From positions 1 through 40,392 of the forward strand of contig CAKZPS010000046.1 in assembly GCA_937139415.1 (NCBI GenBank): 40,392 nt of DNA, given 5' to 3'. Of this stretch, positions 24,600-28,936 are shown one piece after another; positions within the stretch are counted from its first letter, which is position 1, and the number at the start of each line of letters is the position of its first letter. The position numbers and the translations under genes are program-made. A model generated the notes under the pieces. The model saw nothing but the letters and a program-made list of their open reading frames with translations, searched no databases and was not told the origin of the DNA. This DNA is from an uncultured bacterium. Lineage in GTDB: Bacteria > Atribacterota > Atribacteria > Atribacterales > Caldatribacteriaceae.

Positions 24600-24978
24600 G
24601 ATCGACCACCCAACCTATGGCAACGGCAACCACATGGCGATCAGAATGGGAAAAAGAGAGCGATACCGACTGAAAGCAGTGATCAAAGGGATAGGCAAAC
24701 TGCACCACCGGTTCACCCGATGGTGCGTGAAGAATGAGAATGTCTTTCCACCGAGGATGCATCCCTCGGCGAAGAAAGAGTTTCTTGATCGCTTCTTTAC
24801 TCGCAAACAAGGCAGAAATTCCTTCCAAGAAACGTCTTGTACCCCTTTTTCGATAAAATTCGAGCTCTTCATGAACAAACAACTTCCCCAGAAAAACGTG
24901 ATTGAACCGCTCGAGAACGGTTCGCACTCTTTCAATCTCTATGATGTCAACACCAGTAAAAATCTGAATGTTACTCAC
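24592..24978 (-). CDS. acpS: Holo-ACP synthase (AcpS)
   Basis: AcpS moves 4'-phosphopantetheine from CoA to the serine of acyl carrier protein. GVDIIEIERV near the N-terminus supplies the Mg-binding aspartate. FASKEAIKKLF carries the catalytic lysine/glutamate motif of the family. LSFSHSDRHVVAVAI near the end is the third conserved block. The 128-residue length is normal. GTG at 24978 overlaps the EF-G paralogue stop as GTGA. The substrate of its own substrate chain, CoA, is finished by coaE elsewhere in this window. Confidence 0.93.
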   Translation of the reverse strand: MSNIQIFTGVDIIEIERVRTVLERFNHVFLGKLFVHEELEFYRKRGTRRFLEGISALFASKEAIKKLFLRRGMHPRWKDILILHAPSGEPVVQFAYPFDHCFQSVSLSFSHSDRHVVAVAIGWVVDHD

Positions 24979-27056
24979 TCGGAGGCTTCTTTTTCCTTCT
25001 TTGCTTTTTCTATAATCCCTTCGGCAATTTGCGACGGAACTTCTTCATAATGAGAAAATTTCATGGAAAAGTACCCTCGCCCCTGAGTAATAGAGCGGAG
25101 GTCTACCGAGTAACGGAATAATTCGGCCAAAGGTACTAATGCCTTGACCTTCTGGTAGCCATCCTGCGGTTCCATTCCCAAAATTCTTCCTCTTCGGCTA
25201 TTGAGATCTCCAATGACGTCTCCCATGTTTTCATCGGGAACTATAACCTCAACGTTCATAATCGGCTCTAAAAGAACCGGATTGGCCTCCGAAGCTCCTT
25301 TACGGAAAGCCATAGAACCGGCAATCTTAAAAGCCATATCCGAGGAATCGACCGGATGGTAAGAACCATCATACACTGTAACTCGGACATCGATCACCGG
25401 ATATCCGGCCAGAATGCCTTCTTGCATTGCTTCTTGAACACCTTTTTCTACCGCGGGGATGTAGTTACGTGGAATCACTCCACCCACAATTTTATCTACA
25501 AACTCGAACCCCTGTCCTCGTGGGAGAGGTTCAATTTCAAGCCACGCATGACCATACTGCCCGCGACCACCGGATTGTCTCTTGTATTTACCCTCGGCTT
25601 TGGCAGTTTTTTTGATCGTTTCCTTGTAAGGAACTTGAGGAATGGATAGCGCTATTTCCACGCCAAATTTTCGCTTCATTTTATCCGCTAAGACATCGAG
25701 ATGAATGTCACCGAGACCATAGAGAATGTCTTCCTTGGTATCGGGATCGCGCTGCAGCTTTAAAGTCGGATCCTCCTCAAGCATTCTACTCAACGCTTGG
25801 CTGATTTTTTCTTCATCACCTTTTCCTAAGGGACGGACTGCAGCAAGGTAATTAGGTTCAGGATAACTCAAGGGAGGAAATAGAATAGGATGTTCTCTAT
25901 CGGCCAGAGTGTCCCCCAGATAAATTTCGCTGATCTTAGCTACTGCGGCAATGTCGCCTGGACTTACCTCTTTGGTTGACTCTTGGTTTTTACCTCGCAA
26001 GAAGACTAACTGCCCCACCTTTTCTTCGGTACCTCGGGTAACATTATACAGTTTGCCATCGGAGGAAAGTTTCCCCGAAAAAACTCGAAAAAACGCAATT
26101 TTCCCTACATAAGGATCACTGATGAGCTTAAAGACAAACGCTGAAAAAGGTTCGTTTTCAAGACACTTTCGTTCTTCGTCTCCCTGAGTTTGAGGGTTTC
26201 CTCCCCGAACTGTACCCCTTTCCAGGGGAGAAGGAGCAAAATTGACTAAGAAATCACTCACGAGATTGACCCCCTTATTGTTGAAACCGGAAGCACAAAG
26301 AATCGGGAATAATTTTCGCTCCAAAATTGCTTGTTTGAGAGCCTTGTGAAGAGTCTGCAAATCAATCCCTTGTCCTTCTAAGTACATATTGAGTAATTCA
26401 TCATTGGTTTCCGCAACGTTTTCGATCAAGTTTTCCCTCATCGCAACAATTGTATCTTGCAGCTCTTCGGGAATTGGTCCTTCTTTCACTTTCCCCTCAT
26501 TCTCAAAATAGAAGGCCCGCAAAGAAAGAAGATCCACAACTCCCCGAAAGTCTGCTTCTTTTCCAATGGGAAGATATATCGGAGTAGCCTTAGGAACGAT
26601 TTCTTGGATTTCCTGAAAGGCTTTCTCAAAGTTAGCTCCTTCACGATCCATTTTGTTGACCAAGAAAAAGACAGGAAGGTTTTCTTGGGAAAGATAATTC
26701 CAGACCTTTTCTGTGCCCACCTCTACTCCTGAAACGGCACATACTACAATGATCCCACTATCTACTGATCGGAGAGCACCGATTACGTTTCCAACAAAAT
26801 CTGCATACCCCGGTGTATCGATAAGGTTAATTTTACATTCCTGCCATTCAAAAGGTAATACTGAAAGGTCGATAGATATTTTTCTCTTTATCTCTTCAGG
26901 TTGCCAATCGGAAGTTGTGTTTCCCTCTTCTACTTTCCCTCGACGGGTGATTACCCCGGCATTGAATAACATTGCTTCAGAGAGAGTCGTTTTGCCAGCA
27001 CCGGCATGAGAAAAAAGACCAACATTTCTAATATTTTCGCTCGCAAAATTCTTCAA
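24975..27056 (-). CDS. fusA: Elongation factor G paralogue (FusA2-like GTPase)
   Basis: The 693-residue protein has the EF-G domain set: a GTPase domain, beta-barrel domain II (PFSAFVFKLISDPYVGKIAF), III, IV (SGGRGQYGHAWLEIEPLP) and V (PLAELFRYSVDLRSITQGRG). The P-loop is SHAGAGKTT rather than the AHIDAGKTT of housekeeping EF-G. Switch II reads DTPGYADF, with Tyr84 where the catalytic histidine normally lies. The NKMD motif is present. These are signs of the FusA2-type paralogue, whose exact role is unclear. TTG at 27056 is preferred because AGGGAGGAG lies upstream at good distance; the frame itself opens at 27083, directly after the small membrane-peptide gene. It lies outside a str operon, with no rpsL, rpsG or tuf near. 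Confidence 0.9.
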   Translation of the reverse strand: MKNFASENIRNVGLFSHAGAGKTTLSEAMLFNAGVITRRGKVEEGNTTSDWQPEEIKRKISIDLSVLPFEWQECKINLIDTPGYADFVGNVIGALRSVDSGIIVVCAVSGVEVGTEKVWNYLSQENLPVFFLVNKMDREGANFEKAFQEIQEIVPKATPIYLPIGKEADFRGVVDLLSLRAFYFENEGKVKEGPIPEELQDTIVAMRENLIENVAETNDELLNMYLEGQGIDLQTLHKALKQAILERKLFPILCASGFNNKGVNLVSDFLVNFAPSPLERGTVRGGNPQTQGDEERKCLENEPFSAFVFKLISDPYVGKIAFFRVFSGKLSSDGKLYNVTRGTEEKVGQLVFLRGKNQESTKEVSPGDIAAVAKISEIYLGDTLADREHPILFPPLSYPEPNYLAAVRPLGKGDEEKISQALSRMLEEDPTLKLQRDPDTKEDILYGLGDIHLDVLADKMKRKFGVEIALSIPQVPYKETIKKTAKAEGKYKRQSGGRGQYGHAWLEIEPLPRGQGFEFVDKIVGGVIPRNYIPAVEKGVQEAMQEGILAGYPVIDVRVTVYDGSYHPVDSSDMAFKIAGSMAFRKGASEANPVLLEPIMNVEVIVPDENMGDVIGDLNSRRGRILGMEPQDGYQKVKALVPLAELFRYSVDLRSITQGRGYFSMKFSHYEEVPSQIAEGIIEKAKKEKEASE

Positions 27057-27083
27057 GAAACACTCCTCCCTTCGGTTAATCAA

Positions 27084-27224
27084 CTATCTATAGCGTTCAC
27101 TCCATAAGAAAAACCACAAGCTAAGAGTGAAAAGCAAAGCCCACAATTTTGTTTTCCAATCATGCTTCCAAAAATGTCGCCATCGTTCGTACCACTTACG
27201 CCATTTCAGAGATACAGCGAGCAT
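27084..27224 (-). CDS. 46-residue Trp-rich membrane peptide in the cdaR position (CdaR remnant or mini-CdaR)
   Basis: The 46-codon frame begins with ATG at 27224, one base after the cdaA stop, with GGAGAGTAGG just upstream, and ends with TAG abutting the frame of the EF-G paralogue. The first 26 residues are basic and aromatic, with Trp at 8, 11, 15, 19 and 23. That spacing places them on one face of a helix. Residues 27-41 (LWALLFTLSLWFFLW) form a membrane helix, followed by only SERYR. Eight of 46 residues are Trp. In most bacteria cdaA is followed by cdaR, whose N-terminus has a WxxKxxALLFALxLW-like helix before three or four YbbR domains outside the cell. Here only the helix-like part exists. 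Homology to CdaR is inferred from position and this short match. Confidence 0.65.
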   Translation of the reverse strand: MLAVSLKWRKWYERWRHFWKHDWKTKLWALLFTLSLWFFLWSERYR

Positions 27225-27225
27225 C

Positions 27226-27987
27226 CTACTCTCCATATCGTTTATAGAGTATTTTTAACATCTTTTTCAAGGCACCCATCTCGACATCCCAAGCCATTTT
27301 ACCATGGACTGCGAGAGAAACCTTTCCGGTGGTTCCTGAAACTACGATTGCTAAAGCATCTGTTTGTTCAGTAATTCCAATCCCTGCCCGGTGGCGAGTA
27401 CCTACCAATTTCTCTACTCGAGTTGTTTCGGCTAAGGGAAGAATGCAACCAGCCGCTACTATTCTATCATTTCTTACCACAAGAGCCCCATCATGAAGAG
27501 GAGAATCAGGTAAAAAGAGGGCAAAAACAAGCTCTGAGGAGAGAAACGCATCTACTGGAATACCGGTTTGAATGAAGTCCCGCAAATTGTTGTTTCTTTC
27601 TAAAACGAGGAGTGCACCGATTTTTTTTCGCGAAAGAGCTTGGCAAGCCAAAATAACTTCTTCGATGAGCTTCGATCTCCCCCCTTCTCCAAAGGACTCA
27701 TAATTGACGACGAGCCCCCGGCGAAAGTAACCATGTCCGAAGTATATCCTTCGAATCTCTGGTTGAAAGGCCACAATCACTGTACCAACATACCCAAAAA
27801 AGAGCAATCTCCAGAATAACCGAAGTTCCACCAAGCCCAAAAAATTGCTCACCCCGCCCACAAGGAGGAGTACGATCATGATCTTGAGGGGGAGAAACAA
27901 TAGGGTTTCTCGGATGCGATAGATGAAACGATAAGAAAAATAATAAATAATTAAAAGTTCTGCAATGATGACCAGTGCAGTTACCAA
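27226..27987 (-). CDS. cdaA: Diadenylate cyclase CdaA (c-di-AMP synthase)
   Basis: CdaA makes the second messenger c-di-AMP from two ATP. Three membrane helices lie in residues 1-75 (VTALVIIAELLIIYYF, LFLPLKIMIVLLLVGGV and the segment ending GTVIVAFQPEIRR). The cytosolic DAC domain follows, with the catalytic DGA at 166-168 (PLHDGALVV) and GTRHRAGIG at 196-204. At 253 residues it is close to the usual 270. The start is TTG at 27987, with AGGGGA 9 bases upstream inside the argF-cdaA junction. The usual partner gene cdaR is reduced to the 46-codon frame that follows, and glmM is not in the window. Confidence 0.94.
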   Translation of the reverse strand: MVTALVIIAELLIIYYFSYRFIYRIRETLLFLPLKIMIVLLLVGGVSNFLGLVELRLFWRLLFFGYVGTVIVAFQPEIRRIYFGHGYFRRGLVVNYESFGEGGRSKLIEEVILACQALSRKKIGALLVLERNNNLRDFIQTGIPVDAFLSSELVFALFLPDSPLHDGALVVRNDRIVAAGCILPLAETTRVEKLVGTRHRAGIGITEQTDALAIVVSGTTGKVSLAVHGKMAWDVEMGALKKMLKILYKRYGE

Positions 27988-28000
27988 GAGAAAAATTCCC

Positions 28001-28936
28001 CTATGAACTCAAAAGCAACGCCAAGAGAGCTTTTTGGGCATGCAGACGGTTTTCCGCTTCATCTAAAACCACCGAACGGACCCCATCAATAACGTCGTCA
28101 GTGATTTCCTGACCTCGATGGGCAGGCATGCAATGCATGACCATCACTTGGGGAGAAGCCTTCTGTAAAAGCAATTCATTCACCTGATAAGGAAGAAAGA
28201 CGGGAATTCTCGCCTCAGTCTCGGCTTCCTTACCCATACTGGCCCAAACGTCGGTATAAACCACATCAGCCCCTTTCACCGCTCGGTGAGGATCCGGATC
28301 ATAGATGAGAGTTGCTCCACTTTGCACTCCGTTTTCTTGTGCCCATTGCCATATTTTCTCTTGAGGACGATACTGGGGGGGAGTACTCACGACCAAATGC
28401 AACCCCAAAACGGCTGCAGCAACAATCCAAGAGTGACAGATGTTATTTCCATCTCCTACAAAACAAATCTTTACTTCCAAAGTCCCTTTTTTCTCCTGAA
28501 CGGTTAACAGATCACCCAACACTTGACAAGGGTGATGGAGATCCGAAAGGCCGTTGATCACAGGTACACCAGCATATTGAGCCATTTCTAACACATTTTC
28601 GTGGGCAAAAGTGCGCAGAACAATACCGTCTACCATCCGACCTAATACCTGAGCAACATCTTTTACCGCCTCTCGCTTTCCCAAACCCACTTCCTGTGGA
28701 CCCAGATAGAAACTCTCTCCCCCCAGCTGTCGCATAGCCATCTCAAAAGAAACCCGCGTCCGCAGAGAAGGTTTCTCAAAAAGGAGAGCTAATTTCTTTC
28801 CTTTAAGAATTGCCGGTTGATCCCCCACGAGCCACCTCTGTTTCAAATCCTGCGCCAAATGTAGAAGAAACATGATTTCCTGTGCAGAAAAATCGGCTAA
28901 ATCCAAAAAATGTTGCTTTTGCCATTGCCCTTTCAT
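28001..28936 (-). CDS. argF: Ornithine carbamoyltransferase (ArgF)
   Basis: This enzyme joins carbamoyl phosphate and L-ornithine to citrulline. The 311-residue protein has the carbamoyl-phosphate motif EKPSLRTRVSFE (residues 54-65), LGKREAVKDVAQVLGRMVDG, HPCQVLGDLLTV, FVGDGNNICHSW, DVWASMG and HCMPAHRG, which mark the ornithine- rather than aspartate-specific branch. ATG at 28936 has AAAGGAG upstream. It lies between the ornithine racemase-like gene (13 bases) and cdaA. No other arginine gene is in the window, so it may serve biosynthesis, or ornithine turnover with its neighbour. Confidence 0.94.
   Translation of the reverse strand: MKGQWQKQHFLDLADFSAQEIMFLLHLAQDLKQRWLVGDQPAILKGKKLALLFEKPSLRTRVSFEMAMRQLGGESFYLGPQEVGLGKREAVKDVAQVLGRMVDGIVLRTFAHENVLEMAQYAGVPVINGLSDLHHPCQVLGDLLTVQEKKGTLEVKICFVGDGNNICHSWIVAAAVLGLHLVVSTPPQYRPQEKIWQWAQENGVQSGATLIYDPDPHRAVKGADVVYTDVWASMGKEAETEARIPVFLPYQVNELLLQKASPQVMVMHCMPAHRGQEITDDVIDGVRSVVLDEAENRLHAQKALLALLLSS

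Follow-up and report, generated by a model that had tools for sequence, protein, structure and literature searches.

A single-helix form of CdaR, kept beside cdaA across an order of Atribacterota, as a likely partner of the membrane diadenylate cyclase

Results

The window analysed here, a stretch of DNA of 40,392 nucleotides taken as a whole, belongs to an Atribacterota MAG of 2.3 Mb that is 96% complete, its lineage being assigned from the nearest named cdaA loci, all of them from 'Candidatus Atribacteria'. On its minus strand the genes follow one another in the order argF (28001-28936), cdaA, a frame of 46 codons, an EF-G-like GTPase gene, acpS and nnrD. The product of cdaA (27226..27987, minus strand) is a membrane diadenylate cyclase, which produces the signalling nucleotide c-di-AMP; it was recognised through its DAC domain at E 7e-41 and is the only DAC-domain protein found in the genome. 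The short frame, here referred to as mini-CdaR (27084..27224, minus strand; MLAVSLKWRKWYERWRHFWKHDWKTKLWALLFTLSLWFFLWSERYR, 46 codons and a TAG), starts with an ATG 1 nt past the TAG of cdaA and is preceded, across a spacer of 6 nt, by a GGAG ribosome-binding site recognised by sequence within the 3' end of cdaA (27231..27234, minus strand). An alternative in-frame ATG at 27236 would yield 50 residues, but lacks a ribosome-binding site. Coordinates, gap and GGAG motif bear out an earlier note on this DNA, which had described a tightly coupled 46-residue frame with a good ribosome-binding site in the slot of cdaR.

The predicted protein consists of a short, presumably cytoplasmic, positively charged segment rich in Trp, Lys and Arg (27150..27224, minus strand), one CdaR-like transmembrane helix (KLWALLFTLSLWFFLWSE, 27096..27149, minus strand) and a presumed outer tail of three residues. 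A Pfam scan of the 46 residues gave no match, and a PDB search with the mini-CdaR profile returned nothing relevant. The EF-G-like gene is listed by the ORF caller at 24975..27083 (minus strand); its true start is probably the TTG at 27056, after GGGAGGAG. At 27054-27086 it shares a reading frame with mini-CdaR, the two being separated by the TAG and a short spacer, an arrangement that is different in the relative L002.

Two sister families, f5 and f7, have in the slot after cdaA a CdaR of ~400 residues with three to four YbbR repeats, and several comparisons connect the mini-CdaR helix with the N-terminus of that protein. Profile A1, built from the mini-CdaR frames of the order to which the window's genome belongs, returned from each whole sister genome either nothing or one match, which was the N-terminal helix of the CdaR encoded after cdaA (E down to 2e-6), while HHalign paired the minis with sister CdaR N-termini at 90% over 32 columns. 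An independent profile of 25 CdaR N-termini from outside Atribacterota was run against all 760 frames of at least 30 residues in the window and found mini-CdaR at E 9.5e-5 as its sole low-E match, the next standing at 0.79. A gap-free comparison revealed a signature common to the mini and CdaR helices (K at position 0, a small residue at 3, A7, L10, W11, F/Y13, S/G16 and E17). When the corresponding gap-free PSSM was applied to 31,562 hydrophobic segments, 12 scored as high as the helix of the window or above it, and the 12 best-scoring segments listed, judged by eye, all resemble CdaR N-termini of other loci that had slipped past the filter. The divergent minis L016, L020 and L021 have lower PSSM scores, and their place in the family rests on gene position and A1. 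The CdaR-like membrane helix first noticed in the letters alone is recovered in agreement by A1, the foreign CdaR profile, HHalign and the gap-free PSSM.

Gene neighbourhood adds to this picture. The order rplM-rpsI-(Ala racemase-like)-argF-cdaA is common to the order and to two of three sister regions examined; in the third, G025, the racemase-argF pair is absent before cdaA. Among the outgroup loci inspected in other phyla there was no evident mini form, and most have a CdaR-type protein of at least ~200 residues after cdaA. Of the features that define CdaR, mini-CdaR carries the N-terminal helix signature and lies directly downstream of cdaA; the YbbR domain (PF07949) is missing. Judged from its sequence, it belongs to CdaR through descent and position, without the defining domain.

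PF07949 was absent from all 25 genomes of the order, including that of the window, and was detected in nearly all f5 and f7 genomes and in B. subtilis as a control. A second profile, A5, made from the CdaR ectodomains of the sister families, had no match in the genomes of the order and scored at E 1e-138 or lower in the four sister genomes that served as positive control. No full cdaR or separate YbbR domain turned up elsewhere in the genome by either search, an outcome that, by the terms of the earlier note, speaks for its reading. YbbR domains diverge fast, and G059 encodes after cdaA a CdaR-like protein of ~200 residues that escaped both Pfam and A5, so a distant YbbR domain could be overlooked by these searches. 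The downstream neighbour differs as well: glmM follows cdaR in the sister regions, and the EF-G-like gene follows the mini in the order. Canonical GlmM, above the TIGR01455 cut-off, adjoins cdaR in the sister families only; genomes of the order encode elsewhere weaker full-length GlmM relatives, scoring ~263-287 bits where the cut-off is 448. In family f6, the genome G026 (locus L131) shows no YbbR match and no strong GlmM; its contig stops right after cdaA, so that the loss could be older than the order or specific to it.

Among the 25 sampled genomes of the order, 20, from families f1-f4, have DNA downstream of cdaA, and in every one of these 20 a homologous frame follows cdaA immediately; 19 of the frames are complete, L014 being cut by a contig end. 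Their length ranges from about 38 to 103 codons, with 38-47 residues in most genera, ~100 in g8 and ~103 in g9, and their starts mostly overlap the cdaA stop or sit a few bases away. Searched against the genomes of the order, A1 gave a single hit for each genome, in the position anticipated; the genomes in which it found none have no cdaA hit or have cdaA at a contig end. Start codons vary in a few members. L005 and L006 (genus g3) have GTA or TTA at the usual start, where relatives have GTG/TTG, and no ATG, GTG or TTG there; an in-frame ATG or GTG lies ~22 codons upstream, within cdaA. In L017 and L018 (family f4) the sole start of the mini is a TTG 37 nt past the cdaA stop, and an ATGATG at that stop belongs to another frame, which terminates early.

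Selection was estimated from six independent sister pairs over a core of 34 codons, by simple counting without saturation correction, so that the exact ratios are rough. The core has accumulated 57 synonymous and 47 nonsynonymous changes, a dN/dS-like ratio of 0.19 (P 1.6e-16); the other two frames of the same DNA gave 0.93 and 1.18, with P values for synonymous excess of 0.41 and 0.79. Purifying selection on mini-CdaR is strong throughout the order, and this, with the 20 of 20 genomes that keep the frame, confirms the conservation in relatives that the earlier note had named as a check. With the overlap with cdaA left out, the ratio was ~0.07 in the helix, the most constrained part, 0.12 in the juxtamembrane stretch and 0.50 in the weakly constrained N-terminal segment (helix versus N-terminal segment, Fisher P 1.1e-5).

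In genus g8 (L011-L015) a 54-residue outer tail extends beyond the helix and is near neutral, with a ratio of 0.6-1.2 (core versus tail, Fisher P 0.04 on small counts). The tail may represent what is left of the YbbR region; a profile comparison in search of a YbbR remnant aligned the helix alone. The low ratio of the helix and the near-neutral tail of g8 indicate that selection keeps the membrane part of CdaR and has released the outer part.

The N-terminal segment had been singled out from the start as amphipathic and Trp-periodic. Tryptophans occupy residues 8, 11, 15, 19, 23, 28, 37 and 41 of the mini-CdaR of the window, with a period of 3-4 residues in the N-terminal segment, and both the window and its nearest relative genuinely show this periodicity. 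It is not conserved across the order, where Trp positions are poorly kept and the aromatic and basic character of the segment is kept more widely. A shuffle test of amphipathicity gave P values around 0.02-0.08 for roughly half the sequences, and the net charge on the N-side runs from 0 to +8, being positive in all but one. The observation about the segment thus holds for this genome, and the weight once placed on it passes to the helix (0.07 versus 0.50).

The Trp-rich, amphipathic nature of the segment in the window and in some relatives, together with the departure of glmM from the operon, could point to a CdaR-derived protein that has taken up a new job and no longer serves CdaA, for example sensing the state of the membrane through its Trp/Lys/Arg-rich cytoplasmic segment or acting with another membrane partner. 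We regard this as unlikely, because within the core conservation is lowest in the N-terminal segment, constraint is concentrated in the CdaR-like helix, and the coupling of the gene to cdaA persists. That the frame is a decayed remnant, the non-functional stump of a cdaR on its way out, is very improbable: a mini far shorter than CdaR and the decay-like, near-neutral tail of g8 would suit it, but the frame is kept in every genome of the order with sequence, across four families, and its low ratio, both overall and in the helix, comes with a signal confined to the reading frame. This pattern of selection and order-wide retention led us to reject decay. Between the two options originally offered, a minimal regulator or a remnant, the former is favoured; its further description as an activator finds no support.

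An unrelated small membrane protein whose helix came to resemble that of CdaR by chance is suggested by the general similarity of hydrophobic helices and the lack of a Pfam match; two independent profiles, the profile-profile comparison, the gap-free PSSM against 31,562 segments and the identical gene position largely refute this reading, which we consider extremely improbable. Equally hard to credit is a leader or coupling frame that chiefly regulates translation of the EF-G-like gene, suggested by the tight spacing between cdaA and that gene, given that the helix is selected at the amino-acid level and that CdaR proteins without an EF-G-like gene downstream have the same helix.

Discussion

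We consider it probable that mini-CdaR descends vertically from CdaR, has been drastically shortened and serves as a CdaA-binding subunit without an outer domain. The comparisons above show the homology with CdaR, the place of the gene, the missing ectodomain and the constraint on the helix; topology, contact with CdaA and any effect on its activity are inferred in the scheme that follows. In an ancestor of the order, the YbbR domains outside the membrane and the canonical glmM next to cdaR would have disappeared, with the N-terminal transmembrane helix of CdaR staying in place, translationally coupled to cdaA. The basic N-terminus of the protein would most likely face the cytoplasm, and the helix would pack against those of CdaA in the membrane, as reported for full CdaR, whose interaction with CdaA runs via the transmembrane domains of both proteins (PMC10243994, PMC8573169, PMC6368335). 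The mini could then serve constitutively as a subunit, lending CdaA stability or determining its oligomeric state or activity, free of input from an outer sensor. An AlphaFold model of a relative's CdaA joined to its mini (stop read as Gln) had a pTM of 0.57, did not show docking and was uninformative about contacts; the mini was helical in this model, with pLDDT mostly 76-88, and a fold search with the model retrieved only DAC domains among the matches listed.

Published accounts conflict as to whether CdaA activity is increased or decreased by CdaR (PMC8573169, PMC5207132), and for this reason we assign neither an activating nor an inhibiting sign to mini-CdaR. In S. aureus, deletion of ybbR leaves c-di-AMP unchanged under standard conditions (PMC5207132), which indicates that even a full CdaR can act subtly.

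The removal of the ectodomain and the retention of the helix under strong selection suggest that the helix is the indispensable part of CdaR at CdaA. A bolder proposal, on which we are evenly divided, is that, within CdaR, the transmembrane helix is by itself both necessary and sufficient to control CdaA, and that it became fixed across the order once the envelope-sensing domain and the adjacent GlmM had been lost. The order thus offers a natural deletion experiment on CdaR, the mode of action of which on CdaA is still debated, and a protein of ~40 residues amenable to reconstitution and structure work. Annotation based on the YbbR domain overlooks CdaA partners of this type. Our literature search found no paper on a shortened CdaR, nor any on how Atribacterota regulate c-di-AMP; as far as we searched, a single-helix CdaR maintained by purifying selection across an entire order is undescribed.

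Among known systems the closest is CdaR itself (YbbR), which is found in Bacillota, many other phyla and the sister Atribacterota. CdaR and the mini alike occupy the slot directly after cdaA and share, without gaps, a helix of the form K-x-x-(A/S)-L-x-x-A-x-x-L-W-(F)-(F/Y) with a trailing S/G-E; unlike CdaR, the mini has no YbbR or other large ectodomain, and measures about 38-103 residues rather than about 200-470. CdaM/DacM and other structurally solved cyclases have a DAC domain related to that of CdaA. These enzymes are membrane cyclases not known to have a CdaR partner, whereas the CdaA of the order would retain a partner helix. The natural CdaA-CdaR fusions of some streptococci (PMC10243994) resemble the arrangement proposed here in that a CdaR helix works beside the helices of CdaA; in the fusions CdaR is joined to CdaA, whereas the mini keeps the CdaR helix and little else, as a separate small protein.
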